Under the pieces are notes generated by a model. The model was not told the DNA's origin and made no database searches. It saw only the letters and a program-made list of their open reading frames with translations. Positions 1 to 64,000 of a stretch of DNA of 64,000 nt are shown here, one piece after another. The translations under genes were made by a program, and so were the position numbers. Each line of letters starts with the position of its first letter. Within the stretch, counting starts at the first letter, position 1. Source of the stretch: Alistipes sp. (lineage in GTDB: Bacteria > Bacteroidota > Bacteroidia > Bacteroidales > Rikenellaceae); the NCBI GenBank assembly GCA_017937125.1, contig JAGBEH010000007.1:186001-250000 (forward strand). The letters run 5' to 3'.

Positions 1-1838
1 AATAAAGCGTTTAACTTGTCGCACAGCTCGGCTGTGGTGAAGGGCTGACCCTCGCACTTGTCGATCTGTTCGAATACGAATTGCGGAAACTGCTGGCGCA
101 GATAGGCCGCGAACTGCCCCTCGTTCAGCTCGCATACCGCTATCCTGCGGAACCTGCCGAATATTTCGGCCGTATTCGTCGGGAGCGGGTTTATGTAGTT
201 GAACTGGGTGTGCGACACGCTTTTACCCTCGCTGCGCAACTTCTCTACGGCACTGCGCAGATGTCCGCGCGTACCTCCCCAGCCTACGACGAGCAGCTCT
301 CCTTCGATATCGCCGAAGACCTCTTGTCGGGGGATATATTCCGCAATCTTCGCCACTTTCGCCGCACGCATACGCACCATTCGGCTGTGGTTGTCGGGGT
401 CGTGTGAGATGCAGCCGCGCAGAGCGTGCTTCTCCAATCCTCCGATGCGGTGTTCCAACCCCTCCTTACCGGGGAAAGCCCAGCTGCGGGCCAACTTTTC
501 GTCGCGGGCATACGGCATAAATCCGCCTTCGGGCGCACTCTCCGCGACGGGCGGTACGATTGCGGGGTATTCGCTCATCGAGGGTATGCGCCACGCTTCC
601 GAGCCGTTGGCTATGAAACCGTCGGAGAGCAGTATGACGGGTGTCATATGCTCCATCGCAATCTTCGCCGCCGTAAAGGCATAGTGGAAACAGTCGCTCG
701 GCGACGATGCCGCCACTACCGCTGCGGGACACTCTCCGTTGCGGCCGTAGAGTGCCTGCATCAGGTCGCTCTGTTCGGTTTTCGTCGGCAGACCCGTCGA
801 TGGGCCTCCGCGCTGCACGTCTACCACGACCAACGGTAATTCCGCCATAACGGCCAGACCCAACGCTTCGCTTTTGAGCGACAGGCCGGGACCCGAAGTG
901 GTCGTTACCGCCAGATCGCCTGCGAATGCGGCGCCTATGGCCGTGCATATTCCCGCTATCTCGTCTTCGGCCTGCACTGTTTTGACTCCCAAATCCTTGC
1001 GCTTGGCCAGCTCTTCGAGAATCACCGTCGCGGGGGTTATGGGGTAGGAGCCGCAGAAGAGCGGGCGTCCGCTCTTCTCGCTCGCCGCGCAAAATCCCCA
1101 CGCCGTCGCCACGTTGCCGTTTATCGTGCGATACGTGCCCTTTTCGAGCGGGGCGGGGGCTACGGTGTATGTATTGGCGAACTGATGCGTGTTTGCCGCG
1201 TAGTTGTATCCCGCATCTATCGCCAGCGCATTGGCTTCGGCTATTGCGGGGTTCTTTTTCGCGAATTTGGATTGCAGATAGCTTTTCGCGTGGTCTTCGG
1301 GACGGTTGAAGAGGTAGAAGCAGATGCCCAGTGCGAACATATTCTTGCACTTGACTATGCTTTTGTTGTCCAACCCCGTCTGCGCGAGCGCATTGCGCGT
1401 CATCGTCGTTATGTCGGGAATTACGACATTGTACTCCTCCAGTCCGAGCTCGGCTATGGGGTCGAGCGTCTCGAAGCCTGCGCGTTTTACGTGCTCTTCG
1501 GTCAGGCTGTCGCCGTCGATTATCACCGTCGCGCCCTTCTTGAGCCACTTGCGGTTCGCCTTCAGTGCTGCGGGGTTCATAGCGACCAGAACGTCGCAGT
1601 AATCACCGGGGTTGTCGATTTTCCGTGCGCCGAAATGCACCTGAAAACCCGATACTCCCGCTACGGTTCCTTGCGGGGCGCGTATTTCGGCGGGATAGTC
1701 GGGGAAAGTGGATATGCCGTTTCCCATCAGCGCCGACGTATCGGAAAACAGGGTTCCCGTGAGCTGCATACCGTCGCCCGAGTCGCCCGAAAAACGGATG
1801 ACGACCTCCTGCGCTTCGCATAAGTTTTTGTTGTCCAT
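1..1838 (-). CDS. korA: 2-oxoglutarate (2-oxoacid):ferredoxin oxidoreductase subunit alpha, 3' end cut by window edge
   Basis: The frame opens at ATG 1838 (MDNKNLCEAQEVV) and stays open to base 1, giving about 612 residues, close to the usual 610-620 of the Bacteroidetes protein, so only the last few residues are missing. The N-terminal part is the gamma-type domain with the motif GDSGDGM (residues 18-24), fused to the alpha domain with YPITPAT near residue 263. The enzyme oxidatively decarboxylates 2-oxoglutarate or a related 2-oxoacid to the acyl-CoA and passes electrons to ferredoxin in the cytoplasm. Its thiamine-diphosphate beta subunit (korB) is not in the window and probably lies just past base 1. 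The exact 2-oxoacid cannot be told from this subunit alone. Confidence 0.93.
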   Translation of the reverse strand, partial: MDNKNLCEAQEVVIRFSGDSGDGMQLTGTLFSDTSALMGNGISTFPDYPAEIRAPQGTVAGVSGFQVHFGARKIDNPGDYCDVLVAMNPAALKANRKWLKKGATVIIDGDSLTEEHVKRAGFETLDPIAELGLEEYNVVIPDITTMTRNALAQTGLDNKSIVKCKNMFALGICFYLFNRPEDHAKSYLQSKFAKKNPAIAEANALAIDAGYNYAANTHQFANTYTVAPAPLEKGTYRTINGNVATAWGFCAASEKSGRPLFCGSYPITPATVILEELAKRKDLGVKTVQAEDEIAGICTAIGAAFAGDLAVTTTSGPGLSLKSEALGLAVMAELPLVVVDVQRGGPSTGLPTKTEQSDLMQALYGRNGECPAAVVAASSPSDCFHYAFTAAKIAMEHMTPVILLSDGFIANGSEAWRIPSMSEYPAIVPPVAESAPEGGFMPYARDEKLARSWAFPGKEGLEHRIGGLEKHALRGCISHDPDNHSRMVRMRAAKVAKIAEYIPRQEVFGDIEGELLVVGWGGTRGHLRSAVEKLRSEGKSVSHTQFNYINPLPTNTAEIFGRFRRIAVCELNEGQFAAYLRQQFPQFVFEQIDKCEGQPFTTAELCDKLNAL

Positions 1839-1871
1839 TATCTTTTTTAAGTAGGGTTTCGATTTCCAGCA

Positions 1872-1879
1872 CAAATATA
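1872..1879 (-). promoter_or_regulatory. Bacteroidetes -7 element for korA
   Basis: On the minus strand this reads TATATTTG, a perfect match to TAnnTTTG, with a start expected near 1865 and a leader of about 27 bases before the korA ATG. No clear -33 TTG is visible at the usual distance. Confidence 0.55.
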
Positions 1880-2031
1880 ACATTAAATTCCGTCGCAGGT
1901 ACCCGTAATACGAATATTTCGACGTTTCCGACTGTTTTGAGTTTGCAATATGATGATATTAAGGGCTTTGCGATAATGTTTTTCCTTCTTGGAAATCGGT
2001 GTCCGACTGCCGTACGACTTCCTGAAATCGA

Positions 2032-4026: not shown

Positions 4027-4031
4027 TGGTG

Positions 4032-12671: not shown

Positions 12672-13262
12672 ATGTATAGAATATTGTTGTCGATAGCATT
12701 ATTGTTTGCGGCGGTCGAGGTCTCGGCGGCCCCCCCCCTTACCGATTCGAGCACCGAGCCCGTGCAGGTGCATAATGCGGCGCACTCGTCCACCCGAGTG
12801 AGGTATGAAACTCCCGAGAGCCGTTATGTATATGAACGTGTGGCGTTGCAGCGCGACGATGCGCGTCCTGCCGAGCGTCTGAAGGAGCGGGATACTGTTG
12901 CCGTGAAAGAATCGGCAACGGCGGTTTACGACGGCGCCCATATCGAATTCGAGGAGACGACTCACGATTTCGGGCATGTGGCGCGCCGCGGAGGCGATCT
13001 GACGGCTGAGTTCGAGTATGTGAACGACGGCACGGAACCGCTTGTCATAACCCGCATAACCACTTCGTGCACCTGTATCAAACCGCAATTCATAAAACGC
13101 CCGCTCGCCGTGGGCGAACGGGGTGTCATAAGGCTGGTGTACGAACCTCATAAAATGGAGGCGGGAGCTTTCCATAAGGTCATTCAGGTGCATACCAACT
13201 CTGTCGGCGGCATTCGCCTTCTGACCGTGCAGGGTTATTCCGTTAATGGCCGCAAGTTATAG
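12672..13262 (+). CDS. DUF1573 domain exported protein
   Basis: A 196-residue protein starting at Met 12672 (MYRILLSIALLFAAVEVSA), which gives a clean signal peptide; upstream in-frame codons only add a charged stretch. The mature part has a linker of about 75 residues and then a DUF1573 immunoglobulin-like domain (FEETTHDFGHV, ITTSCTCIKPQ, VTVQGYSV-like end). It is a periplasmic or cell-surface protein of unknown role. The sequence right after the signal peptide is coded by a run of nine C residues, so slippage would shift the frame early. It follows tonB by 47 bases and probably ends that operon. Confidence 0.85.
   Translation: MYRILLSIALLFAAVEVSAAPPLTDSSTEPVQVHNAAHSSTRVRYETPESRYVYERVALQRDDARPAERLKERDTVAVKESATAVYDGAHIEFEETTHDFGHVARRGGDLTAEFEYVNDGTEPLVITRITTSCTCIKPQFIKRPLAVGERGVIRLVYEPHKMEAGAFHKVIQVHTNSVGGIRLLTVQGYSVNGRKL
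12730..12738 (+). repeat. Nine-C homopolymer inside the DUF1573 gene
   Basis: The run codes the Ala-Pro-Pro junction just after the predicted signal-peptide cleavage site. A gain or loss of one base would truncate the protein within a short distance. Confidence 0.9.
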
Positions 13263-19569: not shown

Positions 19570-19986
19570 TCAGTCTATAAAAAATGTTCGCCCGCTGCCG
19601 CCGTCGCTCTCTATGCGCACCGTCATAACGTCGTCGGGCAGTAATTCCTCCACCTTTTCGGGCCACTCTATGAGACACAGGTCGCCCGAGTAGAAATACT
19701 CTTCGTATCCCAGATCGAAAGCCTCTTCGGTCTTGTTTATGCGATAGAAATCGAAGTGGTATACGGGCTTGCCGTCGGATGTATCGTATTGGTTTACAAG
19801 TGCGAATGTCGGACTCGTCACGGCATCATGCGACCCGAGACGCTCCATTATCGAACTAATGAGCGTAGTTTTGCCCGCCCCCATCGCGCCGTAAAAGGCC
19901 ACGACCGTTCGGCCGTCGAGAGCCGCGATTACGGCATCTGCCGCTCGCGACAATTCGGAAAGCGAGTCTATCGATACGGTTGTCAT
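19570..19986 (-). CDS. tsaE: tRNA threonylcarbamoyladenosine biosynthesis ATPase TsaE
   Basis: A 138-residue P-loop ATPase with Walker A GAMGAGKT (33-40), the switch-like TSPTFALVNQY and the family motif HFDFYRI followed by LIEWPEKVEELLP. It helps the TsaB-TsaD complex cycle during t6A37 formation on tRNA. The size is normal. The gene has its own near-leaderless promoter and is followed by the START-like gene. Confidence 0.96.
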   Translation of the reverse strand: MTTVSIDSLSELSRAADAVIAALDGRTVVAFYGAMGAGKTTLISSIMERLGSHDAVTSPTFALVNQYDTSDGKPVYHFDFYRINKTEEAFDLGYEEYFYSGDLCLIEWPEKVEELLPDDVMTVRIESDGGSGRTFFID

Positions 19987-23833: not shown

Positions 23834-25963
23834 ATGAAAAAATTATTGTCGCTTATGATGCTCGCATCTTTGGCCGTCGGTTGCGAAAAGCGGCCGCAGC
23901 CGCTCGAAATCGATAATGCGCTTACACCCGAAGAGATAAGCGCGGGGGTCTTCACTCCCGAGATTATGTGGAAGATGGGACGCGTCGGGTCGCCTTCGCT
24001 CTCGCCCGACGGTATGCGCCTGCTCTATACGGTTACTTATTACAATATGGAACAGAACCGCGGCGTTACGGCCGTGTACGTGCGCGATATGAATTCGGGC
24101 GACACGGTGCGCCTTACCGACCATTCGTCGAACGCCTCCGATCCGCAGTGGAGCGCCGACGGCGAAACCGTTTATTTCCTCTCCGACCGCAGCGGTTCGA
24201 ACCAGATATGGGCTGTGAGCGCGTCGGGCGGTAACGCGCGGCAGGTGTCGGCATTCGATAAGGATGTCGAGGGTTACGGCATAAGTCCTGCGGGCGACAA
24301 GCTCTTCTACGTGCAGCGCGTGCAGATCTGCGACCGCAAATCGTCGGACATACATAAGGATATGCCCGAATCGAAAGCACGCATCTACGACGACATTATG
24401 TGCCGCCACTGGAACTATTGGGACGAGGGCAGCTATCTTCATATTTTCGTCGGCGATATGCTCAACGGCCGCGCCGTCGTGGGCGTAGACATAATCGGCG
24501 CCGAGAGTGCGTGGGATGCTCCGCTCGCTCCCTATTTCGATATGGCGGAGATAGCTTGGAGCCCTTCGGGCGACCGTCTGGCATATACCTGCAAGTGTTC
24601 TATGGGCAGGGAGTATGCCGTATCGACCGACTCGGACATATTCGTCTACGATGTCGTGCCCGCCCGCACCACCAACATCTGCAAGCTGCTGCCGCGCAAT
24701 GTCGAGTTCGGCGCCAAGCGCCGTATGCCAGTTATGCAGGGGTACGACAAATATCCGGCCTTCTCGCCCGACGGCGTGATGATAGCCTTCCGTTCGCAAC
24801 GACGTGCGGGCAACGAGTCCGACAAGGAGCGCCTTTTCGTCCGCGACTGCTCTACGGGCGAGATGCGCGACCTTACGGCCGATTTCGACTATAACGCTAC
24901 CGATTTGGTGTGGGACGGCAACGGACGTATATGGTTCATCGCGCCTATCGAGGGAACGCACCAGCTTTGCCACGTCGCGCTCGACGGTTCTCCCGTCGAG
25001 GTCGTAACGTCGGGCGATCACGATCTGTCGTCGCTGACTATGGCGGGCGGACGTGCCGTCGTCGCTATGACCAAGATGTCGCAGGCGGCCGAACTCTTCG
25101 AGGTAGACCTCGCGAGCGGCGAACTTACGCAGATTACGTTTGTAAATAAGGAGATTTACGACAATATCCCCCTCTGCAAGGTCGAGAAACGCTGGGTGGA
25201 GACCACCGACGGAAAACAGATGCTGACATGGGTCATTCTGCCGCCCGACTTCGACCCGAATAAGAAATATCCGACGCTGCTCTATTGCGAGGGAGGCCCG
25301 CAGAGCGTCGTTTCGCAATTCTGGAGCTATCGGTGGAACTTCGCGCTTATGGCTTCTCACGGATACGTGGTAGTGGCTCCGAACCGTCGCGGCGTGCCGT
25401 CGTTCGGACAGGAGTGGCTCGACCAGATTTCGGGCGACTACTCGGGACAGAATATCCGCGACTATCTCTCGGCTATCGACGACGTGGCGAAAGAGGAGTG
25501 GTGCGACGAGTCGCGGTTGGGCTGCGTAGGCGCCTCGTACGGCGGCTACTCGGTCTATTTCCTCGCAGGCTGCCACCAGAAGCGCTTCAAGGCTTTCATT
25601 TCTCACTGCGGCATCTTCAATTTCGAGTCGATGTACGGCGAGACCGAAGAGCTGTTCTTCCTGAACAACGACTACGGCGGCCCCTATTGGGACAAGTCTG
25701 ACCCTACGGCCGTGCGCTCGTATGCCAATTCGCCGCATAAGTTCATCGACAAGTGGGATACTCCCATATTGATAATCACGGGCGAATACGACTTCCGCAT
25801 CCCTTACACGCAGTCCTTGCAGGCTTTTACGGCTGCCCGTATGCGCGGCATAGACGCACGTCTGGTGGAATTCGAAAACGAGGCTCACCAGGTGTTCAAA
25901 CCCCAGAACTCTTTGGTGTGGAACCGCGAATTTTTCGGCTGGCTCGACAAATACCTGCAATAA
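23834..25963 (+). CDS. S9 family peptidase (prolyl oligopeptidase type), lipoprotein
   Basis: A 709-residue protein when started at ATG 23834 (MKKLLSLMMLASLAVGCEKR), which gives a lipobox with Cys17; the longer frame upstream overlaps the Nudix gene and has no signal. The N-terminal two-thirds is a WD40-like beta-propeller (repeats such as SLSPDGMRLLY, DPQWSADGETVYF, YPAFSPDGVMIAF). The C-terminal alpha/beta-hydrolase has Ser568 in GASYGGY, Asp653 in GEYDFRIP and His685 in ENEAHQVF. It should be an envelope-bound di- or oligopeptidase. A dipeptidyl-peptidase-5-like activity is possible, but specificity cannot be read from the sequence. Confidence 0.93.
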   Translation: MKKLLSLMMLASLAVGCEKRPQPLEIDNALTPEEISAGVFTPEIMWKMGRVGSPSLSPDGMRLLYTVTYYNMEQNRGVTAVYVRDMNSGDTVRLTDHSSNASDPQWSADGETVYFLSDRSGSNQIWAVSASGGNARQVSAFDKDVEGYGISPAGDKLFYVQRVQICDRKSSDIHKDMPESKARIYDDIMCRHWNYWDEGSYLHIFVGDMLNGRAVVGVDIIGAESAWDAPLAPYFDMAEIAWSPSGDRLAYTCKCSMGREYAVSTDSDIFVYDVVPARTTNICKLLPRNVEFGAKRRMPVMQGYDKYPAFSPDGVMIAFRSQRRAGNESDKERLFVRDCSTGEMRDLTADFDYNATDLVWDGNGRIWFIAPIEGTHQLCHVALDGSPVEVVTSGDHDLSSLTMAGGRAVVAMTKMSQAAELFEVDLASGELTQITFVNKEIYDNIPLCKVEKRWVETTDGKQMLTWVILPPDFDPNKKYPTLLYCEGGPQSVVSQFWSYRWNFALMASHGYVVVAPNRRGVPSFGQEWLDQISGDYSGQNIRDYLSAIDDVAKEEWCDESRLGCVGASYGGYSVYFLAGCHQKRFKAFISHCGIFNFESMYGETEELFFLNNDYGGPYWDKSDPTAVRSYANSPHKFIDKWDTPILIITGEYDFRIPYTQSLQAFTAARMRGIDARLVEFENEAHQVFKPQNSLVWNREFFGWLDKYLQ

Positions 25964-28515: not shown

Positions 28516-28550
28516 CGGAGCGCTTGCCGACTGCCGTTTCCGCAGTGAAT

Positions 28551-31500: not shown

Positions 31501-31865
31501 TTTACCGCGAGCTGGATTCGCTTCGCGGCGAGGAGGCCTTGCAGGGCTTCGCCGCACGCCTTAAAGACCGCTTCGGCGAATTGCCCCGCCCGACGCTCGA
31601 ACTGCTCGATGTGGTGCGCCTGCGCCGCGAGGCCGTGAGGTTGGGTATGGAGCGCGTGAAGATCAAGAACGGATTGATGATAGTGCAGTTCGCGGGCGAC
31701 GAGCACTCGCCTTTATATAAGAGCGACACGTTTATGAATATGCTCCGCCGCGTTACGGCGCAGCCCGACCGTTTCGTCCTCAAACAGCGCGACAACCGCT
31801 TGGCGATGACCGTTCGGAGGGTGAACGGCGTAGGCGAGGGCTGGAAGGTGCTTCGGGAGTTGTAG
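28551..31865 (+). CDS. mfd: Transcription-repair coupling factor Mfd
   Basis: 1104 residues from ATG 28551 (MNDMLRFFDGSEP); a TTG nine codons upstream is less likely. The order of domains is complete: UvrB-homology part (PGQYSVRGGIVDIFSYSESR), RNA-polymerase-interacting CarD-like domain (LNALQVGDYVVHMDHGIGRF), helicase lobes with Walker A GDVGFGKTEVA near residue 577 and DEEQ near 675, TATPIPRTL, motif VI QLRGRVGRSDK and the C-terminal TRCF domain. It removes stalled RNA polymerase from lesions and recruits UvrA. Confidence 0.97.
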   Translation: MNDMLRFFDGSEPLRKLCRELGKESVTVRLDELVGGALSPYAAAAIARCGGVHVFVAEDRDAAAYLMNDFYALLDEERVFFFPSSYKNSIVYGNEDAQGVVQRTNTVNALRGAAGKGYTVVCTYPEALAEGVVDPDTMNGDMLSLDVGSAISISELEERLESMGFKPVDFVYEPGQYSVRGGIVDIFSYSESRPFRFDFFGDEIESVRRFEISSQLSADRLQHADIIPNINSRSDRKVSLARFAGNASFWFYDADYALRRVDDIRRKMLSEMEEPSRIDSFLTSRRALLDDMAADRIVMLRNNVAERPADITVRFATVPQPSFNKNFELLADDIISHTERGYSCRILSENRAQIERLDNIFHQIGRGGAVVNALPVVLHEGFIDNDLKLCFYTDHQIFERYQRYRINGEIKRDEQMTVAELNALQVGDYVVHMDHGIGRFGGLVKINENGKVHEAIKLIYKDNDVLFVNVHSLHRISRYKSGDGEPPKIYKLGGGAWQKLKNATKRAVKDISRELIALYARRKASKGFAFSPDTYLQQELEASFMWEDTPDQQAAAEAVKRDMESEQPMDRLVCGDVGFGKTEVAIRAAFKAAVDGKQTAVLVPTTILALQHYRSFAERLRDLPVKVEYLNRTKSAKETRQILEDLAAGKIDILIGTHKILGKNVRFHDLGLLIIDEEQKFGVAAKEKLTQMSVSVDTLTLTATPIPRTLQFSLMGSRDLSVISTPPPNRRPIVTESHVFSEDILRDAVDAELSRSGQVFIIHNKVDELETLRGTVCRLCPAAKVRTAHGRMPADDVEKVLMDFIYGDFDVLIATTIVENGIDIPNVNTIIIDDAQNFGLSDLHQLRGRVGRSDKKAYCYLLTPPDELMSSDARRRMRAIEEFSDLGSGFNIAMQDLDIRGAGNLLGAEQSGFIADIGFETYQKIMREAIAELRTEGVDVSAMSDGEQNVVGNMNFIEDSVIEIDVPAELPESYVRQQAERLRLYRELDSLRGEEALQGFAARLKDRFGELPRPTLELLDVVRLRREAVRLGMERVKIKNGLMIVQFAGDEHSPLYKSDTFMNMLRRVTAQPDRFVLKQRDNRLAMTVRRVNGVGEGWKVLREL

Positions 31866-37730: not shown

Positions 37731-39764
37731 ATGGCAAGTCTAAACACATTAAGGACCAAATTCGGCATCGTGCTTTCCATAGTGATAGCCCTTGCGCTTT
37801 TGGCATTCATTCTCTCTTTGAAGACCGAAATGGGATTCTCGGGCAACGACCCCAAGGTCGGTGAAATCGACGGCGACAACATCTCCTATTCGGAGTATTA
37901 CGACGAATACGAGGTTACCAAGTCCCAGAACGGCGGCAACGAAGCCTACGACGAGGCTGCCGAAGACCGTTTGGCTGCCGCCGCATGGCAGTCGCTGATC
38001 GCCAAACACGCATTGATTCCCGGTTTCGAGCGTTTGGGGCTGGGCGTCACGGATGACGAACGTATGGCGATGCTGTCGGGCAAGCATCCTTCGGGCGTCT
38101 ACTACAGCGCTTTCGCTAACCCGTCTACGGGTGCCTACGATACGGCCGTAATCGCCGATTTCCTGTCGCAGTCCGAAGGCAATCTTCAGGCTCAGCGTGC
38201 TTTCGCATACATCAACTCCCAGGCGATTCTCGAGCGTGAAATCACGAAGTTTATGGGGCTGGTCAAGGGCGGCACCTACGTCAATGCTCTCGAGGTCGCA
38301 AACGGCGTGCGCAATTCGAACTATACTTTCTCGGGTAAGGTCGTAAGCCGCAAATACACCTCGGTGCCCGATTCGCTGTTCACGGTCGGCAAGGGCGAGA
38401 TGAAAAAATACTATAACGAGCATAAGGGAATGTTCAAACAGCAGCCTTCGCGCTCCATATCGTACGTTCTGTTCGAGGTAGACCCCACGCAGGAGGATAT
38501 GAATGCCGTCGAGGCCGAGGTAAAGGCCGTAGCTGCCGAGTTCGCGGTGGCCGATGACGTCAAGGCGTTCGTCCGCCAGAACCGTCGCGGTTCCATCGAC
38601 GACCGTTATCTGACCAAGGCCCAGCTTTCGTCGGCCGAGGCGGCTGCGCTTATGGCAGGCAAGACTTACGGTCCCGTGCTCGAAAACGATGTGTGGACTA
38701 TGGCCCGCGTTCTGGACAGCAAGACGGTGCCCGATTCGCTCGGCTTGCAGCACATAGTCCTTCAGTATAATGCCGACAAACTGGCCGACAGCCTTCTGAC
38801 CGCCCTCAAGAAGGGTGCGGATTTCGCCGAGACCGCACGCGCGCATTCGATTATCGAGACCGCTGCCAACGGCGGCGAGATAGGCGTATTGCCTTTCTCG
38901 GCCCTGCCGTCCGATTTCGCGGAGGCTCTTGCTTCCGCCAAACGCGGCGACATCGTGAAGATCGTTTCGGGCAACGCTATTCAGCTCGTGAAGGTGTATC
39001 GTGCCGACAAGGCTTCGAAACACGTGAAGGTGGCGAGAATAGAGTACCCCGTGGAGGCTTCGTCCGCTACCAAGCGCAATATCCACAATGCTGCGAGCGC
39101 TTTCTCGGTAAATGCCGCCGGTTCTGTCGATAAGTTCAATGCCGCTGCCGCCGAGGCTGCCGTTACGCCGCGTATCGCTTCCATTGCGAACGGTGAACGC
39201 TATGTCCGCGGACTGGACAAGTCTCACGAGATCGTTCGCTGGGCTTACGGTGCCAAGGTGGGCGATATTTCCGAGATTTTCAACGTAGGCAAGGACTACG
39301 TCATAGCAGTTCTTACGGAAATCGACGATAACGAGTACAAATCGCTCAAGAGCGTCGAGCACCAGGTGCGTGCCGCTCTGCTGCGCGACAAGAAGTTCGA
39401 TTATATCGTTGCCGAAATGTCGGGCGACAATCTCGACAGCATCGCCGAAAGTTTCGGTGCCGAGGTTGCGGATTTCAATGACGTTACCTACTCGTCGTAC
39501 TATATCAACGGCGTAGGCTTCGAGCCTCGTTTGGTAGGCGCTATTGCCGCTACCGACGAGACGGGTGCCGTTTCCGCTCCGATCAAGGGCACTTCGGGCG
39601 TTTTCGTATTCACCGTCGATTCGATTACCGACAGCGAAAAGCAGACCGTAGAGGCCGAAAAGGTGCGTTTGCAGGCTATGGCAGAAAATATGGCACAGCA
39701 GGCGTCGCTCTATGCCGTACAGGAGCTCGCTGCCGTTAAGGATTTGCGCAGCAAATATTTCTAA
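37731..39764 (+). CDS. ppiD: Membrane-anchored peptidylprolyl isomerase (PpiD/SurA type)
   Basis: A 677-residue protein anchored by one N-terminal helix (MASLNTLRTKFGIVLSIVIALALLAF region). A SurA-N-like chaperone region follows (EIDGDNISYSEYYDEYE), then one parvulin domain at about residues 340-430 (SLGLQHIVLQYNADKLADSL, GGEIGVLPFSALPSDFAEAL). The C-terminal third is helical and chaperone-like. It should help newly exported proteins fold at the outer face of the inner membrane. It is the last gene before a terminator at 39784-39817. Confidence 0.93.
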   Translation: MASLNTLRTKFGIVLSIVIALALLAFILSLKTEMGFSGNDPKVGEIDGDNISYSEYYDEYEVTKSQNGGNEAYDEAAEDRLAAAAWQSLIAKHALIPGFERLGLGVTDDERMAMLSGKHPSGVYYSAFANPSTGAYDTAVIADFLSQSEGNLQAQRAFAYINSQAILEREITKFMGLVKGGTYVNALEVANGVRNSNYTFSGKVVSRKYTSVPDSLFTVGKGEMKKYYNEHKGMFKQQPSRSISYVLFEVDPTQEDMNAVEAEVKAVAAEFAVADDVKAFVRQNRRGSIDDRYLTKAQLSSAEAAALMAGKTYGPVLENDVWTMARVLDSKTVPDSLGLQHIVLQYNADKLADSLLTALKKGADFAETARAHSIIETAANGGEIGVLPFSALPSDFAEALASAKRGDIVKIVSGNAIQLVKVYRADKASKHVKVARIEYPVEASSATKRNIHNAASAFSVNAAGSVDKFNAAAAEAAVTPRIASIANGERYVRGLDKSHEIVRWAYGAKVGDISEIFNVGKDYVIAVLTEIDDNEYKSLKSVEHQVRAALLRDKKFDYIVAEMSGDNLDSIAESFGAEVADFNDVTYSSYYINGVGFEPRLVGAIAATDETGAVSAPIKGTSGVFVFTVDSITDSEKQTVEAEKVRLQAMAENMAQQASLYAVQELAAVKDLRSKYF

Positions 39765-39966: not shown

Positions 39967-40182
39967 ATGTTAACCGTATTACCATTGTTTCTCGGCAAGT
40001 TGGGTATGACCGAGATATTGATAATAGTCCTGTTGGTGCTGATATTCTTCGGCGGCAAGAAGATTCCCGAACTTATGCGCGGTATGGGCCGCGGCGTCAA
40101 GGAGTTCAAGGATGCCGTCAGCAAGGATTATACCGAGGAAAACGAAGAGGACAAGAACGGCAAATCCGAACACGACGCCTGA
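39967..40182 (+). CDS. tatA: Twin-arginine translocase subunit TatA/TatE
   Basis: A 71-residue protein: an N-terminal membrane helix (MTEILIIVLLVLIFFGGKK) followed by the amphipathic helix with the family hinge FGGKKIPELMRGMGRGVKEF, and an acidic tail. TatA oligomers form the size-adaptable pore for folded proteins that carry twin-arginine signals. It is paired with tatC 81 bases downstream. No tatB is present, as usual in this phylum. Confidence 0.95.
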   Translation: MLTVLPLFLGKLGMTEILIIVLLVLIFFGGKKIPELMRGMGRGVKEFKDAVSKDYTEENEEDKNGKSEHDA

Positions 40183-40263: not shown

Positions 40264-41103
40264 ATGGGTTTGTTCCGATCTTCCGAGCCGGAGAATACCG
40301 ATATGTCGTTCTTCGAGCATCTCGATGCGCTGCGTCCGCGACTTATGCGGTCTGCGGCGGCTCTCGTCGTGTTTATGGTCGCGGCATTTCTGGCCAAAGA
40401 CGTGCTGATGCACATAATTATGGGTCCTAAATCCGAGTGGTTCCCTACTAACCGTCTGTTCGCGTGGCTGTCTGACGTTATGTCCGCCGATGTGCTGCGC
40501 ATCAATTCGCGGCCTCTGACACTTATCAATACCTCTATGGCGGGGCAGTTCAACCTGCATATCGCATTGGCTTTTTATGCGGCGCTCGTACTTACGATAC
40601 CTTATATGCTGTGGGAGTTGTGGGGGTTCATAAAACCCGCATTGACCGCCTCCGAAATACGCAACAGCCGACTGTTCGTGCTTTATGTCTCCGTCTGCTT
40701 TTTTGCGGGCATCCTTTTCGGATACTATGTGCTCGCCCCTCTGTCGGTGAATTTTCTGGCCAACTATGCCGTCAGCGATGCCATTTCCAATATGATCGAC
40801 ATCGACTCGTATATGTCCATCGTGTTGAACCTTTCATTTGCATGCGGGGTTATTTTCCTTCTGCCCGTACTTGTGCGCCTGCTGTCGGGTATGGGACTGC
40901 TGACGGCTGCATTTATGAAACGTTACCGCCGCCACGCGATTCTCGTTTTGGCTGTCGCCTCGGCTATCATCACGCCGCCCGACGCCGTCAGTATGATACT
41001 CGTGCTGCTGCCTCTTTACGGACTTTATGAATTGAGCATATCCGTTGCGGCCCGCGGCGAGAAGCGTTATGCACGCTCGCTCGATACCGATGCGGCGGAG
41101 TAG
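40264..41103 (+). CDS. tatC: Twin-arginine translocase subunit TatC
   Basis: 279 residues from ATG 40264 (MGLFRSSEPENTDMSFFEHL); a TTG 16 codons upstream is weaker. Six transmembrane helices can be placed. The N-terminal MSFFEHLDALRPRLM and the loop NLSFACGVIFLLPVLV match TatC, which binds the twin-arginine signal peptide. The gene is co-directional with tatA and is followed by a strong bidirectional terminator. Confidence 0.94.
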   Translation: MGLFRSSEPENTDMSFFEHLDALRPRLMRSAAALVVFMVAAFLAKDVLMHIIMGPKSEWFPTNRLFAWLSDVMSADVLRINSRPLTLINTSMAGQFNLHIALAFYAALVLTIPYMLWELWGFIKPALTASEIRNSRLFVLYVSVCFFAGILFGYYVLAPLSVNFLANYAVSDAISNMIDIDSYMSIVLNLSFACGVIFLLPVLVRLLSGMGLLTAAFMKRYRRHAILVLAVASAIITPPDAVSMILVLLPLYGLYELSISVAARGEKRYARSLDTDAAE

Positions 41104-51742: not shown

Positions 51743-51944
51743 CTTCGTCGTTGTCTCGACCAATCATAAACTAATCACAAATAAAACTTGAATCGCATGC
51801 GAAATTTTTCGAATCCATCCCGAGTCAGGCACCCTTACGATGCACCGTGTATTTCGTACACGTATTTTTTAACCGAAGCAGGTTTCTGCGTATCCGAAGA
51901 GACCGTTTACGAAGAAGAGACCGATTTCTAAAACACCGACGACT

Positions 51945-55753: not shown

Positions 55754-57342
55754 GAAAATCCATCATATATCTGTTGTCTGCGGCCGCTGCCATTATATTT
55801 CAGCAGTCTTTTGCAGCGGTTGCCGGCGACAGGTCGGCCGATGCGGGCATCACTGTCGCGGGTTATGTCCGCTGCGAGGGCAGGGGCATAGCCGATGCCG
55901 TCGTTTCGGACGGCGTGAATGTCGTGAAAACCGACGCCGAGGGGTATTACGCCCTGCCGTCCGATATCGCTAAAACCGAATTCGTTATGCTCTCCACACC
56001 GCGCGGCTACGAGGTCGATGCCTACGACGGGTTCCTTCCCGCATTTTTCCGTGCCGTCGATAAGAGTGCCGCAGCGCCGCAGCGTTTCGATTTCGACCTG
56101 AAAAAGAGCGGTGACAACGACGAGTATGTCCTCGTGGTCGTTGCCGACGAACATGTCTCGGGGCGTGTTCTCGACGTGCCTGCCTACGGGGGTAAGGTCG
56201 TCGCTCCGACGGATTCGCTCCAGTACGAGGGCGTTTTCCTGCCCCGTCTGAAGGAGTATGTCGCATCCGCTCCTGCGGGCACCAAGTTCTACGGCCTTAA
56301 TCTAGGCGATATGACGCACTCGGAATATTGGTACCGCAATAAGGCGGATATGGATGCCTACATACGCTTGTCGAAAGATATACCTTTCAGTATGTACCAC
56401 TGCATCGGCAACCACGACCATTGCCACAAGTTCACCGACGACTACAATGCCGAAGCCGAATACCGCAAACATTTCGGCCCGACGTACTATTCGTTCAATC
56501 TCGGCAAGGTGCACTATGTCGTTCTCGACGATATGTTGTACCACGGCCGCAATACCTACGACCGCATCATCGCTCCCGAGCAGTTGGAGTGGCTCAAAAA
56601 GGATCTGGCCGCGCTCGATCCCGAGGTGAAAGAGCTGGTTTTGGCGGCGCACGTCCCTCTGACTATGAACGCCGCGACCTTCGAGGGATATAAACCGCTG
56701 CTCAACAATTGGAACGAACTGTATGCTGTCATTCGCGGTTACAATGTGCATATTCTCACGGGCGACTGGCACGCGTCGGCAACGGTGCTCGTCGATGAGA
56801 ATGTCACCGAATACGTCCATCCGGCCGTGTGCGGTACGTGGTGGTACCGCCTTGTCTGCACCGACGGTTCGCCATCCGCTTTCACGGAGTACAGGTTCGA
56901 TGCCGACGGACTCGTCTCGCGCCATACGGTTCCCGTCGAGGATATTTACGGATCGTGCCAGTATACGGTTTACAATAAGGGCGTTACGACGAATACGGGG
57001 CTCAAGGTCTCCGCTAAGGACGACCCGCAGGGCGGTTCTCCCGCAATCCTCGTTAATTTCTGGAACTATAATAATTCGTGGGATTTCGTCTGCAAGGAAA
57101 ACGGGCGCGAAGTCCGCGGCCGCGACGCTATGGTGCGCCTTTGCGACCTGCGGCACCGTGCATACGTCGATGCGGGCGTCGTCGAGGTCGAGCGCTATAA
57201 ATGGCTGCGTTCGAAATACGTCGCACATATGTTCCGCTACGTGCCTCTCGACCCTTCGGCCGAGATAGAAATCACAGCTACGGACTATCGCCACGGCGGG
57301 GCCGTCACGGTGGTGCGTACCCGTTGGGAACCTGAAAAATAA
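55750..57342 (+). CDS. Second metallophosphoesterase, with altered GHxH motif
   Basis: A 530-residue paralogue of the upstream gene, with the same three-domain layout and a signal peptide (MRKSIIYLLSAAAAIIFQQS) that ends without a lipobox, so it is probably soluble in the periplasm. Core motifs are DEH in VADEHVSG, LGDMTHSEY, GNHDHCH and LAAHVPL. The final motif reads GDWH instead of GHxH, so one usual metal-binding His is Asp. The start overlaps the stop of the first copy, and susC follows after 30 bases. The pair may split lipid-anchored and soluble steps of the same pathway. Confidence 0.9.
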   Translation: MRKSIIYLLSAAAAIIFQQSFAAVAGDRSADAGITVAGYVRCEGRGIADAVVSDGVNVVKTDAEGYYALPSDIAKTEFVMLSTPRGYEVDAYDGFLPAFFRAVDKSAAAPQRFDFDLKKSGDNDEYVLVVVADEHVSGRVLDVPAYGGKVVAPTDSLQYEGVFLPRLKEYVASAPAGTKFYGLNLGDMTHSEYWYRNKADMDAYIRLSKDIPFSMYHCIGNHDHCHKFTDDYNAEAEYRKHFGPTYYSFNLGKVHYVVLDDMLYHGRNTYDRIIAPEQLEWLKKDLAALDPEVKELVLAAHVPLTMNAATFEGYKPLLNNWNELYAVIRGYNVHILTGDWHASATVLVDENVTEYVHPAVCGTWWYRLVCTDGSPSAFTEYRFDADGLVSRHTVPVEDIYGSCQYTVYNKGVTTNTGLKVSAKDDPQGGSPAILVNFWNYNNSWDFVCKENGREVRGRDAMVRLCDLRHRAYVDAGVVEVERYKWLRSKYVAHMFRYVPLDPSAEIEITATDYRHGGAVTVVRTRWEPEK

Positions 57343-57372: not shown

Positions 57373-60300
57373 ATGAAAAAACATCTACGTAACTTCGGCC
57401 GTCCGGTCGGGCTTCCGTTGCGTGTTCTCCTGCTTGCTGCGATGCTGTGGGTCGGAACTCCGTCTCTGTATGCGCAAGGCATAAAGGTGACGGGCAGGGT
57501 AGTCGATAAGGACGGGTCGGCACTTGTCGGTGCCACGGTCGTCGTCTCGGGTACGAGCAACGGCGTATCTGCCGACGGCAAGGGCAATTATGCCATTACC
57601 GTCAAATCGGGCGAGAGCATTCTCGAGTTCGAGTATCTCGGCTATCAGCCTCAGAAGGTCAAGGTCGGCACCAAGACGGTTATCGACGTCATCCTGCAAC
57701 CCGATACCCAGCAGGTCGATGAAATCGTCGTCATAGGTTACGGCGAGACTAAAAAGACCGACCTTACGGGTTCGGTTACCAACGTGAAGATGGCCGACGT
57801 CAAGGACGCCCCCGTGGCGTCTATCGACCAGGCGTTGCAGGGCCGTATCGCGGGCGCCGATATTATGTCCACGTCGGGCGACCCGACCGCGGGAACATCC
57901 ATACGTATCCGCGGTTCGCGTTCGATTACCGCCTCCAACGAGCCGCTTATCGTCGTAGACGGCATAGTCGATGCCGTGCAGGATCTGAGCGACATCAACT
58001 CGGCCGACATCGAGGCCGTATCCGTGCTCAAGGACGCCTCCTCGACCGCTATCTATGGTGCCCGCGGCTCCAACGGCGTAATCATCGTTACGACCAAGAA
58101 GGGCAGCCCCACGGTAACGAAACCGTGGATTACCTTCAAGGCCGAGGCGGGCTTCTCGCAACTCGCACGCAAACTCGACCTTATGACGGCGGCCGAGTAT
58201 GCCCAGTATCGCAACGAGATAACCGAGGCCAATAACAACTGGTCGAACCGTGCACAGCAATATTTCCTGTACAAGGACCCGCAGTCGCTCGGCAAGGGCA
58301 CGGACTGGATCGACGAGATTACGCATATCGCCCCTTACCAGAACTACAACCTTTCGATCTCGGGGCGCAATTCCAAGACGAATTACTACGGTTCGCTGGG
58401 TTACAGCGACATCGAGGGTATCGTCCGCGACAGCGGATTCGAACGCATCACGGGGCGTTTTTCCATCGGACACCAGTTCTGCAAATGGTTCAAGCTGGGT
58501 GCCAATGTTTCGATAAACTACCGTAACGAGAGGGCCAACAAGGCGGCTATCGGCGGTACGAACTGGTGGAACGGCGCCACTTATCTGAGCCCTCTGTTGA
58601 AGCCTACCGACACCTACAACCCTTATTACGGGTCGGGCGGTACGTTCAACAACCCCGTGATATGTCTCGATATGAATACCAACCGCACCGAACGTTTCAA
58701 CTTCTCGAATACCGTCACGCTCGAGTTTATGCCCGTCAAGGGGATGACCATAAGCAGCAAGAATACGGCCTATTTCTACCAGCAGCACGTCTTCCGCTTC
58801 TATCCGAGCACGCTGCCTACCCGCAACGAGGGCGACGGTGGCGAGGTGTTCCGTTCGGAGTATGAAACGCGAACCATTTCGACCGACAATACGATAACCT
58901 ACAAGCACGATTTCAGCGGCGGCCACCATTTCGACATAATGGGCGGCTTCCTCGCCTCGCACCGCCTTTACAACGATATCGACTACGGTGCCAAGGGTTA
59001 TCTGGTCGATGATCTCAAGTGGAACAATCTCAGCGGACTTCAGGACAAGGAGACGATAGCTCCCCATTCGTGGAATACGACGCTCGTCAAGATGTCGTTC
59101 ATCGGCCGCATCAACTACAACTACAAACAGCGCTATTATATCACCGTTACGGGACGCGCCGACGGTTCGTCGAACTTCGCCGCCAACCACAAGTGGGGTT
59201 TCTTCCCGTCGGTGGCTCTCAAATGGACGCTGTCGAACGAATCGTGGCTCAAAACCAACCGCCGCATCGACGAACTCGCCATCCGCGTGAGTGCGGGACG
59301 TACGGGTAACGATGCCATACAGTCCTACCGTTCGCTGTCGGCTATGTCTTCGTCCGCCGCAGGTTATATTTTCGACGGCTCGCAGGCTACGTACTACTAT
59401 CCGTCGCGTCTGGAGAGCGATAACCTCACGTGGGAGAAGACCGACCTCTACAATGTGGCGGTGGATATGGCCTTCTTCAAAAACAGACTGAAGATTACGG
59501 CCGAAGGCTATCTGTCCTATACCCGCGACCTGCTGCTTACGGTCCAAAAGGCCAACCAGTCGGGATTCGGCAGCCACTACGAGAATGTCGGCCGCACGTC
59601 GAACAAGGGCGTCGAGCTTACTATCGAGAGCCGCAACATCGTGAAGAAGAAGTTCTCGTGGACTACGATGCTGACTATGTCCCACAACAAACAGCGCGTC
59701 GAGGAGATCGGCAGCGAAGATTTCGTCGTGGCGATGAACAGCCCCGGCAACGGCAGCTATATGATGTACGGTTATGTCGCGGGACGTCCGCTCAATGCCC
59801 TGTGGGGCTTCAAGTACGGCGGCGTATGGCATAACGAGGAGGAGATCGAACGCAACAAGATCACCCGTGCATATGCCAATCCGTCTACGGCCGTGTCGCC
59901 CGGACGTCCGCGTTACATCGATGTCAATCACGACGGTACGCTCGACAACAAGGACCTGGTCTATCTGGGCAATGCCGATCCCGATCTCTACGGAGGTCTG
60001 CAAAATACCTTCAATATAGGCCATCTGCGCATCGGCGTCTACTTCGCCTATTCGCTCGGCGGCAAGATCTACAACTATTCCGAGTTGCGTATGTCGGGTT
60101 CGTATACGACCAACCAGTATCGTTATATGACCAACGCATGGCATCCCGTCCGCAACCCGAACTCGGACTATCCGCGTGCGGGTGCCGTCGAGGTGCACGT
60201 GCCGAGCAACCTTCAGGTACACGACGCGTCCTACATACGTCTCAAGACGGTCAGTCTCTCCTATACGTTCGACCTGCGCAAGTATACGAAGGTCCTGCGC

Positions 60301-60557: not shown

Positions 60558-62093
60558 ATGAAGACAAAAATATATGCGTTTTTCGCGGTGCTCCTCGCCG
60601 CATTTGCTGCAAGCTCCTGCTCGCTTGAGGAGAACCCCGAATATTTCGTCAATAAAAAGCAGTTCTACAAGAACCGCGAGCAGTGCGAGGCGGCCGTCAA
60701 TGCGTGCTACAACCAGCTCAAGAACATCTATACGTTCCGAATGCTGACGCTTACGGACGCCCACAGCGACATCATCTACGAGGCGGCTCCGACCGTCACC
60801 GAAGCCCGTCTCGAGCTTTCGCCCGCACAGCCGGGCGGCGGCGAGGACATATGGCAGCGCTGCTACCAGATGATTATGTACGCCAACAGCGCAATCGCGG
60901 GCATCGAAACCTCGCCGATCTCCGACGAGGAGAAGAAACCGCTGCTGGCCGAGACGGTCATAATGCGTGCGTTCCATTACTATCTGCTCACGAGCTTCTG
61001 GGGCGATGTCCCGTTCTATACCGAAGACGTGGCCACTACCGAGATTATGAACCGCATCACGCGCCTGCCGCGTATGTCGGCCGTCGAGACCCGCCGCTAT
61101 CTTATCGAAGAGCTGAACGAGTATGTCGATTACCTGCCGCAGATACGTACGTCGGAGAACAGGGGCAACCGTGCGGGTGCCGCCGTCGGCCTGATGCTTA
61201 TCGGCAAGATGGCTATGTGGAACGCTGCCAAAGATACCGACGCTCCCTCCGAAGATTACTGGTGGGATATTGCGCTCGATGCTCTCAAACGCCTTCAGGG
61301 AATTTACGGCGAACTGAACCAGTATCCGCTCGAGGACATTATGTTCCGCAACAAGAACACCCGCGAATCGATATTCGAGGTGCAGCACAGCTACACTTCG
61401 GGCGGCGTCATCTATACGTCGAACCTCGCATGCGTGTGTATGCCTTACCAGAATACGGCCGAGAGCGGCACGAACGTCTTCGACGGCGTAGAGGTCGAGG
61501 AGCTGGGCAACGATGCCAACGTATGGACGCCTGCCCGTCCGAATGTCTATTTCTGCTCGGGTCTTCAGACGCGCGGCAGCGATGATCTCCGTGCGGCGAT
61601 CAATATGGCCTGGGAATACGGCGGCAAGGAGTTCAAGAGCGTGAATACCCGTCCGTGGATGGGACCCAAATTCTGGTGCCCGAATATGCGCGACAGCTAC
61701 GACTCGAACAACTACAAGATTTTCCGCTATGCCGACGCGCTGCTGATGATGGCCGAGTGCTATCATGCCAAGCGCGACGTCGAGAATATGCTCGCCTGCC
61801 TGAACGAGGTGAAGACGCGTGCGGGTCTTCAGCCCTACGCGTTCCGCAGCTGGGACCGTGCGCTGACCGAGATTCAGGACGAACGCGCCCGCGAACTCTT
61901 CGGCGAGTTCCAGCGCAAGTTCGACCTCGTGCGGTGGGGCATATGGTACTCGCGCGTCTCCGAAATCAACGACTATCAGGAGCTGCGAATGAATATTCGC
62001 CCGTGCCACGAGTATCTGCCCATTCCCGACAAGCAGGTGACCTATTCGGGATATATGCTCGACAACAAGGAGTACAATAAATACGGTATGTAA
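60558..62093 (+). CDS. SusD/RagB-type substrate-binding lipoprotein
   Basis: 511 residues from ATG 60558 (MKTKIYAFFAVLLAAFAASS, lipobox SSC); an in-frame TTG four codons upstream is less likely. The alpha-helical TPR-like fold typical of SusD is present, with RAFHYYLLTSFWGDVPFYT early and the C-terminal ELFGEFQRKFDLVRWG. It binds the ligand at the cell surface and caps the SusC barrel. It lies 89 bases after susC and 20 bases before the BACON lipoprotein gene. Confidence 0.95.
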   Translation: MKTKIYAFFAVLLAAFAASSCSLEENPEYFVNKKQFYKNREQCEAAVNACYNQLKNIYTFRMLTLTDAHSDIIYEAAPTVTEARLELSPAQPGGGEDIWQRCYQMIMYANSAIAGIETSPISDEEKKPLLAETVIMRAFHYYLLTSFWGDVPFYTEDVATTEIMNRITRLPRMSAVETRRYLIEELNEYVDYLPQIRTSENRGNRAGAAVGLMLIGKMAMWNAAKDTDAPSEDYWWDIALDALKRLQGIYGELNQYPLEDIMFRNKNTRESIFEVQHSYTSGGVIYTSNLACVCMPYQNTAESGTNVFDGVEVEELGNDANVWTPARPNVYFCSGLQTRGSDDLRAAINMAWEYGGKEFKSVNTRPWMGPKFWCPNMRDSYDSNNYKIFRYADALLMMAECYHAKRDVENMLACLNEVKTRAGLQPYAFRSWDRALTEIQDERARELFGEFQRKFDLVRWGIWYSRVSEINDYQELRMNIRPCHEYLPIPDKQVTYSGYMLDNKEYNKYGM

Positions 62094-62113
62094 CTTAAAA
62101 TTAAGATCAGACA

Positions 62114-63154
62114 ATGAAAAACAAGATATATGCCGCACTTCGGGCCGCAGCGGTTGCGGTATTCCTGCTCTCGGCGGGCGGATGCCGTCAGACTTACGAA
62201 CTGAAGCTGCCGCTCTCGACCAGCACGAATGAGATACTGGTCACGAAGGAGGCGGGAACGGCCTATTTTATGGTCTATTCCACGCACGACTGGTCGGTGG
62301 AATTCGACCGTCCGATAAGCTGGGCCACTATGTCGCCGACCCGCGGCTCCGACAACGGCCAGGTGCTTATAACTTATGATATGAATTCCGACCTTTCGCG
62401 AGGGGTGGATATAATCATCCGATCGGGCGGCAGGGAGCGCACCGTCTACTTCGCGCAGGCGACGGGTATGAGCGACCCCGTTTACGCTTTCGTCAGCAGG
62501 ACGCTCGGCATTTTGAAGGATGCGATCGACGTCTCCGTGGATGTTACCACCAATCTTACCGATGATGACATCGCACTGGCCGAATGTTCGGTCGTTTACG
62601 GCGACGACGGCGACGAGTGGATAGACAATATCGTCGTCGGGCGCGACAAGGTCGCACTCTCCGTCAGTGCCAATACCACGGGCTTCGACCGTATGGCCGA
62701 ATTGAGGGTGGAGATTTCCGGAGCATACGAGGGCGAAGGCATTTCCACTTCGCTGTGGATTACCCAGAGCGCCGAGGAGGCGTATGTACGTTTCGGGTCC
62801 GACAGTTACGACGTAAAACCCGAGGGCGAGGAGATTGCTCTGCCGTTCCGGTCCAATTTCGCACAGTCCGCGCTGTACGACTATACGGTTACCTGTACGG
62901 TCGTCGGCGAGAACGATTCTGATGTGACATGGCTGTCGGATGTTACGGTAGACGGTTCCGTGCTGCGGGCCGTGGCCGCTCCCAACAAGTACGAACCGCG
63001 CAAGGCATACCTTACGCTGCATTTCGTCGATGAGAACGGCGTTACGCATTCGGGCAATACGCTTATGCTGTCGCAGCTGAAAACTACGGCCGGAATCGTC
63101 GATGGCGATAACGGTGACGGTGAGGAACCGAAGGATCCCGAGACCGATTTCTAA
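62114..63154 (+). CDS. BACON-domain surface lipoprotein
   Basis: A 346-residue lipoprotein (lipobox SAGGC, about Cys24). At least one BACON-type domain is visible (VTKEAGTAYFMVYSTHDWSV, followed by WATMSPTRGSDN), and a second, similar beta-rich unit lies near YVRFGSDSYDVKPEGEEIA. BACON domains occur in SusCD loci as spacers or glycan or mucin binders. The position directly after susD marks it as the SusE-like surface protein of this locus. The C-terminus is acidic (DGDNGDGEEPKDPETD). Its ligand is unknown. Confidence 0.82.
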   Translation: MKNKIYAALRAAAVAVFLLSAGGCRQTYELKLPLSTSTNEILVTKEAGTAYFMVYSTHDWSVEFDRPISWATMSPTRGSDNGQVLITYDMNSDLSRGVDIIIRSGGRERTVYFAQATGMSDPVYAFVSRTLGILKDAIDVSVDVTTNLTDDDIALAECSVVYGDDGDEWIDNIVVGRDKVALSVSANTTGFDRMAELRVEISGAYEGEGISTSLWITQSAEEAYVRFGSDSYDVKPEGEEIALPFRSNFAQSALYDYTVTCTVVGENDSDVTWLSDVTVDGSVLRAVAAPNKYEPRKAYLTLHFVDENGVTHSGNTLMLSQLKTTAGIVDGDNGDGEEPKDPETDF

Positions 63155-63172
63155 CCTTAAAACAGCAAGATT

Positions 63173-64000
63173 ATGAAAAAGATATTGTTATATACGACTG
63201 CCGCGGCGATGATGTCCGTCGCTGCGGGCTGTAATGCCGATATTGCCGATGATGGTTCGCCGTCGGGTTCCGACGGCGCTGCAAAGGCGGGACGCATCGA
63301 GGCTCTTATCGATGACGAGACGACCTGCGATGTGCGCAACTCGCTTACCGACAAGGACGGCGAGCGCTATATCCTCTGGAGCGAGGGCGATGTCATCGGT
63401 ATCTTCGGCTCTGCCGCGGGCCGCAACGTAGCGGCTACCGTAGACCCCGAATTCGTCGGCACGCGCCGCGCGGTTTTCGACTATCTGGGCGATGTCGAAG
63501 GCATCTTCTGCGGATACTATCCCTATAATGCGAATGCGTCTATCAACGGCGATGTCCTCACCACTGCATTGCCTGCGCGGCAGACATACTCGCCGACGAG
63601 CGTGTTCGCTTCGAATACGACCATTATGGCGGGCTATGTACGCGGCGAGGAGAATGTCCTCGAATTCAAAAACGCCTGCGCCATCTTGGAGATACAGCTC
63701 ACGGGAAGCGAGCTCATCAAGTCCTTGTCTCTGACGAGCGGGTCGCAGCCTCTTGCGGGCAACGGCTCGGTCAATCTGCGCGACGAGCAGCCCGTTTTCA
63801 AAATCAGGAGCGCCGATACGAGCGCACAATATTGCATTACGCTGGATTTGGGCGAGGGCGTGAGGCTGACCTCCGCTCCTACGCCGTTCTACTTTGTGGT
63901 TCCTGCGGGTACGTACGACGATCTGACACTCGTTACCGAAGGCGAGGGCTTCGTCTGCCACCGTCGTTCCGTCGCATCGCATACTCTGCAAGTACGCCAT
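63173..64000 (+). CDS. Second fimbrillin-like lipoprotein, 3' end cut by window edge
   Basis: The frame runs from ATG 63173 (MKKILLYTTAAAMMSVAAGC) to the last base, giving 276 residues and no stop. It aligns by eye with the first fimbrillin-like protein of the locus: YILWSEGDVIGIFGSAAGRN and FYFVVPAGTYDDL correspond to its GDKIGLFGSESGKN and FFVVPAGEYAAGD. Such paralogues at both ends suggest duplication of the module. Any C-terminal Fib_succ-type domain would lie beyond the window. Confidence 0.8.
   Translation, partial: MKKILLYTTAAAMMSVAAGCNADIADDGSPSGSDGAAKAGRIEALIDDETTCDVRNSLTDKDGERYILWSEGDVIGIFGSAAGRNVAATVDPEFVGTRRAVFDYLGDVEGIFCGYYPYNANASINGDVLTTALPARQTYSPTSVFASNTTIMAGYVRGEENVLEFKNACAILEIQLTGSELIKSLSLTSGSQPLAGNGSVNLRDEQPVFKIRSADTSAQYCITLDLGEGVRLTSAPTPFYFVVPAGTYDDLTLVTEGEGFVCHRRSVASHTLQVRH

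Follow-up and report, generated by a model that had tools for sequence, protein, structure and literature searches.

The tetranucleotide CATG is almost absent from a 64-kb stretch of the genome of an Alistipes species, and we consider it probable that the loss reflects selection by a Type II restriction-modification (R-M) system with CATG specificity. The stretch, called the window below, comprises bases 186001-250000 of contig 6 of the source genome (G000; 2.16 Mb, 12 contigs, 90% complete) and is numbered 1..64000; according to program counts, which were made without regard to strand, it is depleted of CATG, CCGG and GTYRAC over its whole length. Exactly 15 CATG were counted, against 194 expected from an order-2 Markov model (z = -16.6), 210 ± 14 in 100 dinucleotide shuffles (all 100 of which contained at least 15) and 244 expected from base composition. 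The original prediction, made by eye, had put the number at about 15 and the chance expectation at roughly 200-250, which agrees with these figures, and the six positions it quoted are all among the 15; its GC content of near 57% was too high (55.1% measured). The reversed control of CATG, GTAC, was found 178 times versus 221 expected. TATG and CATA were in excess, and the excess of CATC was greater still.

Other sites were affected as well. CCGG was down to 15% of expectation (59 versus 402) with a z-score (-22.4) larger than that of CATG; GTYRAC, the HincII site, occurred once against 69 expected, CTGCAG not at all against 20, and CTAG twice against 50, the last being rare, as had been remarked, in the window and low in most relatives too. 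GATC, which had been described as ordinary, was half depleted (135 versus 265). The depletion of CCGG and GTYRAC had gone unmentioned before.

The loss of CATG extends beyond the window. Twelve further stretches of the source genome (221 kb) contained 82 CATG where 727 were expected, and a count over the whole genome gave 117 occurrences of CATGNNNNNNGC against 1489 of the reversed control pattern (ratio 0.079). Over 269 kb (the window and 11 stretches) CATG stood at about 8% of expectation (72 versus 862) and GTYRAC at about 2% (4 versus 233), while CCGG was found 350 times versus 1625 and CTGCAG 5 times versus 90. As far as sampled, CATG, a palindromic Type II site, is far below expectation genome-wide. 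It was more retained than elsewhere in L231, the stretch with which contig 4 ends (25 copies versus 60 expected). That stretch is AT-rich over most of its length and carries defence genes at positions 4382-16378.

For GTYRAC an enzyme is at hand: contig 6 carries a HincII endonuclease (PF09226, E = 1.9e-114), whose specificity we take from its family, with an adjacent Eco57I-type methyltransferase (L230, positions 7461-9888). The near erasure of GTYRAC beside a resident HincII system, which is directed at a site different from CATG, is an internal positive control. The state of CATG in the source genome resembles that of GTYRAC; the loss is slightly weaker and the enzyme is not visible.

Clearance of CATG from coding DNA

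The way in which the sites are avoided was read from codon counts in the window and the 12 further stretches, with genes called by a simple codon-score script. Pyrimidine-ending codons preceding ATG end in C in only 17 of 989 cases, versus about 69% in the three other contexts (0.64-0.73: 1852 of 2892 before ATA, ATC or ATT, 5188 of 7160 before other A-initial codons and 20008 of 28953 before the remaining codons). This bears out the earlier remark that codons before Met end in T even where C is otherwise preferred. The histidine codon is CAT in 36 of 388 cases before G versus 489 of 950 elsewhere. As for NCA codons, they account for 14 of 327 before TG versus 545 of 2496 before other T; only this comparison within T is telling, because NCA codons are low before the remaining codons too (1116 of 13899), the genome being GC-rich.

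When the expectation was computed given the proteins and codon usage (stretch L231 being excluded), the observed-to-expected ratio (O/E) of CATG across the three codon phases was 0.22, 0.41 and 0.018, the last value being that of xxC-ATG. From the codon-context shifts and these phase ratios together, we concluded that CATG was cleared from coding DNA mainly by synonymous change. Part of the removal may have touched proteins; the dipeptides able to write CAT-G stand at 0.80 here versus 0.95 in 42 CATG-rich loci and 0.78 in 8 CATG-poor loci. Outside the called genes of the window, one CATG was found versus 15 expected. The same analysis was applied to GATC. In the 7 most GATC-poor loci the phase O/E values were 0.059, 0.059 and 0.013, the third phase again being the lowest; they were 0.41, 0.21 and 0.18 in loci with middling GATC loss, and 0.70, 0.45 and 0.50 in the source genome.

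CATG content and cognate enzymes across the genus

A set of 180 genomes of the genus was used for comparison; with assemblies 55-99% complete, some may lack restriction modules that the organism has. Expressed as a ratio to its reversed control, the CATG pattern varied over a large range, from 0.005 to 2.9 (median 1.13), with 24 genomes below 0.05 and 51 below 0.3. The closest named records by mfd, a gene of the window, are mostly Alistipes, several of them from animal guts. In 42 of 72 loci of these named relatives CATG O/E was at least 0.8; in three named loci around mfd the site was not found at all, against 64, 65 and 66 expected. Other sites fell below 0.10 O/E in some named loci (GATC in 7, AGCT in 5, ACGT in 2, CCGG and GGCC in 1 each), with medians of 0.75 to 0.95 for these five sites. 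For GTYRAC the 12 lowest of 74 loci were at or below 0.08 of the composition expectation (median 0.94), and CTAG was below 0.35 O/E in 20 of the 21 loci having at least 25 expected.

On a quick mfd tree (77 rows, one protein, some branches open), the CATG-low state (below 0.35) changes at least 8 times among the rows longer than 9 kb. The five genomes nearest to the source genome by mfd score (82-83% identity) had ratios of 1.18 (G194), 1.39 (G025), 0.99 (G030), 0.39 (G119) and 0.30 (G168), and stretches of the two best-scoring ones contained 122 CATG versus 104 expected (G194) and 51 versus 51 (G025). The named record nearest on the mfd tree (L102, 5.7 kb, 87% over 796 columns) had 1 CATG versus 11 expected. 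The CATG state has changed within near kin, either on the branch of the source genome or through loss of avoidance in the others. The original prediction had been made subject to the relatives not all being depleted alike: the genus is patchy and the two best-scoring relatives are normal.

The enzymes known for this site are those of the NlaIII/ICEA type, whose CATG specificity we take from the family. PF05315, the ICEA/NlaIII endonuclease family, was found in 6 of the 180 genomes, and the NlaIII-type methyltransferase in 7, namely the six endonuclease carriers and G048, which has the methyltransferase only; in G136 the methyltransferase is in two pieces at contig ends, and in G013 a D12 methyltransferase adjoins the PF05315 endonuclease. 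All seven methyltransferase carriers are CATG-poor (ratio 0.005-0.155). They were more depleted than the other 173 genomes (Mann-Whitney p = 9e-5, kinship ignored) and than the rest of a 114-genome listing block, to which all but two of the 51 genomes below 0.3 belong (p = 2e-3, kinship ignored); this block, and the cut-off of 0.16 used below, were chosen after viewing the list, and the whole-genus rank test uses neither. Taken as a whole, neither the C5 methyltransferases (58 genomes) nor those of the N6/N4 family (71 genomes, E ≤ 0.001) showed an association with the CATG ratio, in genus-wide enzyme searches that did not extend to PF02384, PF05063 and PF13651.

Between G117, G136 and G169 the ICEA endonucleases share 96-97% identity, against 65-68% for the mfd proteins, and between G048 and G117 the methyltransferases share 97%, against 66% for mfd. 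Because proteins of the CATG systems share 96-97% identity between species whose mfd identity is 64-68%, we conclude that they move horizontally. The genes flanking the ICEA modules differ, by eye, between loci. The most diverged module, about 70% identical to the others, is that of G013, which is also the most CATG-depleted of the 180 genomes and has no CATG in the 19 kb surrounding the module (57 expected); this single case fits a longer residence leading to a deeper loss. A plasmid collection (72,556 records) yielded one distant ICEA relative.

At five of the six ICEA loci a further methyltransferase, whose N6/N4 domain departs from the usual order, was seen beside the endonuclease (L033, positions 2161-2937, and kin). 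It has weak similarity to N6/N4 methyltransferases of the genus fetched beside D12/DpnII loci, and its placement recalls what we take to be the two-methyltransferase layout of DpnII systems. In G136 (L334, positions 144-1274) and G156 (L331, positions 8863-10008) an extra gene adjoins the endonuclease on the methyltransferase side; the one of G136 gave weak matches to the EVE and NucS C-terminal domains, both just below the Pfam cut-off.

Some candidate CATG enzymes were discarded. The D12 methyltransferases found in a two-methyltransferase layout in G046, G135 and G200, a layout that is presumably FokI-like, were rejected as G200 is not depleted. The G046 methyltransferase that matches PDLC03342 has look-alikes, judged from their first residues and score only, in the non-depleted G208 and G148, and was rejected too. 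The methyltransferase profile A1 further includes a more distant one of G088 (46-47% identity to the others, ratio 0.45); neither this nor one in G145 (ratio 1.01) was counted as a carrier, nor was the A1 row from G046.

A second pair of site and enzyme was provided by GATC and DpnII, whose specificity we take from the family name. Here patterns were counted per Mb of rounded genome size, since CTAG, which would have been the reversed control, is itself depleted. The DpnII endonuclease and its methyltransferase are present in 12 genomes, and two more have the methyltransferase alone; the Pfam match was checked at four loci and the rest were assigned by similarity to those. The median was 90 GATC patterns per Mb in the 12 carriers versus 319 in 166 others (p = 4e-4, kinship ignored), and within the block 11 of the 14 DpnII-type carriers were GATC-poorer than the rest (p = 4e-4, kinship ignored). 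The 10 DpnII-type carriers of the block that have no CATG system are not CATG-poor (p = 0.68, kinship ignored). For NlaIII type and CATG as for DpnII and GATC, carrier genomes are more depleted than non-carriers: the two pairs largely run in parallel, with a specificity that is large and incomplete. The CATG and GATC measures correlate with a rho of 0.40 in the genus and of 0.16 in the block (p = 0.08).

Origin of the depletion

The explanation that we favour is an orthodox Type II R-M system recognising CATG. Its type was most likely NlaIII/ICEA, which passes from species to species within the genus. While such a system is resident, a lapse of methylation or the loss of the module would expose every CATG to self-cutting, and variants having fewer CATG would win. 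Sites in coding DNA would be cleared via synonymous change, with the easiest phase, xxC-ATG, cleared most. The system would since have been lost from the source genome, the depletion being the trace of a former resident; within the same explanation, it may instead lie on an unbinned element or in the tenth of the genome that the assembly lacks. What we infer from the observations above is the mechanism of selection and that the lineage once had the enzyme. Lasting selection by a past or present R-M system had been proposed from the window alone, and it is now supported by the patchiness of the genus, the correlational association in seven carriers out of seven, the GATC/DpnII pair and the HincII system.

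In the model of Rusinov et al. (2015, PMC4687349), orthodox Type II systems that are resident for long remove their own site and the scar outlasts the system. As the present facts fit that model, the CATG depletion is read as the trace of a lost, or assembly-missed, system; as there, a palindromic Type II site is scarce in a genome where the enzyme is absent and other species of the genus have it. Avoidance was reported there for about half of the orthodox cases studied, the threshold being a Kr of 0.78 (PMC4687349). In contrast to a threshold of Kr ≤ 0.78, O/E is 0.08 here and the counts are 0 versus 64-66 in some relatives; the site also swings from absent to normal within one genus. Such traces are already known, and what is notable is the depth, the patchiness in one genus and the horizontal movement of the CATG enzymes. 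No paper on Alistipes R-M systems with methylation motifs, or on restriction site avoidance in Alistipes, was found in a partial coverage of the literature. Discussions of site avoidance mostly treat it as a bias in the statistics. Here a single genus has species with a four-base site almost gone beside normal kin, and this is so of several sites and at least three types of enzyme. On a species tree one could thereby measure how fast, in what order and at what cost sites are lost, and the composition of a genome can be read as a record of the restriction systems of its past, in organisms known mostly from metagenomes.

Two other sites may have a comparable history. The scarcity of CTGCAG in the source genome suggests a past PstI-like system, and the depletion of CCGG, in a genome where no C5 methyltransferase was found, is a second unexplained trace.

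Several observations weigh against the favoured explanation. The original prediction had advised looking for an NlaIII-like or other CATG methyltransferase gene, and family and profile searches of the source genome, at its 90% completeness, returned no CATG enzyme: neither PF05315 nor the NlaIII-type methyltransferase profile gave a match, no PF01555 or PF00145 (C5 methyltransferase) protein was found, and the only PF02086 protein is a D12 methyltransferase, which was rejected as a CATG enzyme as it adjoins an EcoRV endonuclease. The five best-scoring relatives by mfd likewise gave no match to PF05315 or to the NlaIII-type methyltransferase. The cognate system is known from 7 of the 180 genomes, which include neither the source genome nor these five. 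Of the 38 genomes below 0.16, no more than 7 have the known type of CATG system, and most CATG depletion in the genus is without visible cause. Possession of an enzyme does not always go with loss of its site. The source genome has EcoRV, whose specificity we take from the family name, and GATATC is only half depleted in the 269 kb by the Markov expectation (65 versus 134) and not depleted by composition (56 expected); likewise, GATC is not scarce in G018, a DpnII carrier (789 per Mb). The NlaIII carriers, for their part, have less GATC than the other genomes of the block (p = 0.02, kinship ignored). Lastly, the HpyI system of Helicobacter pylori has an endonuclease that we assume to be of the ICEA family. 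According to PMC3849833, CATG has an O/E of 1.25 in H. pylori and is not avoided although a CATG system, HpyI, is listed; a CATG enzyme alone is therefore not sufficient for avoidance.

The alternative that fares best is a CATG R-M system that is active now, whether its genes are in the tenth of the genome that is unassembled or on a plasmid or element left unbinned, or its enzyme is of an unsearched family; it is possible, though clearly less probable than a lost resident. The incomplete assembly in 12 contigs leaves room for it, as do the defence genes at or near the ends of contigs 4 and 7: on contig 4 a IIG-like methyltransferase, cut by the contig end, has a PLD/helicase protein and a YhcG nuclease beside it, and a Type I methyltransferase lies near the end of contig 7. 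Three of the four PF07669 places of the genome were read and gave no CATG candidate, the fourth being unread. In addition, G115, G024 and G150, where CATG is almost nil, yet have neither PF05315 nor the NlaIII-type methyltransferase, which would be odd if all three had lost a system. No CATG system was disclosed by the open reading frames around matches in two near-zero genomes, G115 (32 kb, with two proteins scanned) and G113 (16 kb). Against it stand the six family and profile searches of the source genome, which returned no CATG enzyme outside the unread PF07669 place, and the level of depletion itself: GTYRAC, which has its enzyme in the genome, is down to 2% of expectation and CATG only to 8%. 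As a separate observation, positions 4001-10000 of a G115 locus (L245) are mostly of low GC and contain 18 CATG together with a putative Eco57I-type methyltransferase.

A broader reading, which we hold to be rather unlikely, is that the site content of gut Alistipes is a long-term record of mobile restriction systems circulating in the community. If so, species would erase CATG, GATC, CCGG or GTYRAC by turns and nearly to zero, and modules could come and go harmlessly in genomes without their target. Protection would come from erasure, not methylation, and the genomes with near-zero CATG in which no CATG methyltransferase is visible would be beyond the need for one.

Mutation instead of selection, with a hypermutable or methylated C in CATG decaying to TATG or CATA, is an improbable cause. 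It would account for the silent C-to-T phase xxC-ATG being the most depleted (0.018 versus 0.22 and 0.41) and for the excess of TATG and CATA, though CATC is in greater excess. However, histidine tends to be written CAC instead of CAT where G follows, which is a T-to-C change, and since removal also runs in that direction deamination is unlikely to be the whole cause. DpnII-type enzymes methylate adenine, and the third phase is likewise the lowest where GATC is scarcest (7 loci); the GATC phases of the middling loci and of the source genome do not follow that order so clearly. Besides, if ordinary mutation rates limited the removal of sites under selection, the C-to-T phase would presumably be favoured too.

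Phage pressure, an option that the original prediction had named, gained no support; it, or a CATG nuclease acting without a methyltransferase, is very improbable as the driving force. An ICEA relative does occur on one contig of a viral collection (L229), and relatives of the A1 methyltransferase profile, some of them weak, on 27 loci of that collection. But of 28 viral-locus rows 24 have a CATG O/E of at least 0.48, the four lower ones being L229 and L272 (one contig), L251 and L256. Nor would a cell survive a nuclease without methylation: 72 CATG are left in the 269 kb of the source genome, by extrapolation some hundreds in all, which makes a lone nuclease unlikely, and 18 persist in the low-GC stretch of G115. 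Hardly credible, and rejected for CATG, is a lineage-wide bias from codon usage, DNA structure or an artefact of the Markov model, of the kind that possibly applies to CTAG, which is low in most relatives irrespective of other sites. It is contradicted by the patchiness: CATG is normal in the two best-scoring relatives and at 0.8 O/E or more in 42 of the 72 named loci, and the GTAC control stands at 178 versus 221 in the window.

Residual sites and minor observations

The CATG that persist in the window were placed by count and gene calls, without strand. Those within called genes lie at 12975..12978, 19827..19830, 25227..25230, 27547..27550, 28707..28710 (in mfd), 36605..36608, 36663..36666, 37984..37987, 40841..40844, 56152..56155, 60137..60140, 61429..61432, 61764..61767 and 62928..62931. 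The one at 36605..36608 is the sole one of the 15 in the xxC-ATG phase of a called gene, and that at 51796..51799 the sole one outside called genes. The only GTYRAC of the window is a GTTAAC at 39969..39974 (either strand).

The genes of the window include mfd, a BamG-type protein and LptC. The mfd gene (28524..31865, + strand) served as a marker for kinship and for the retrieval of relatives and has no part in the cause. One viral contig (L248) carries a 61% relative of the CATG methyltransferase; it has no GATC in 12.5 kb (20 expected) and a CATG O/E of 0.74. Among the matches listed, the mfd genes of G027, G028, G005, G112, G144, G145 and G204 have one in-frame TAA.

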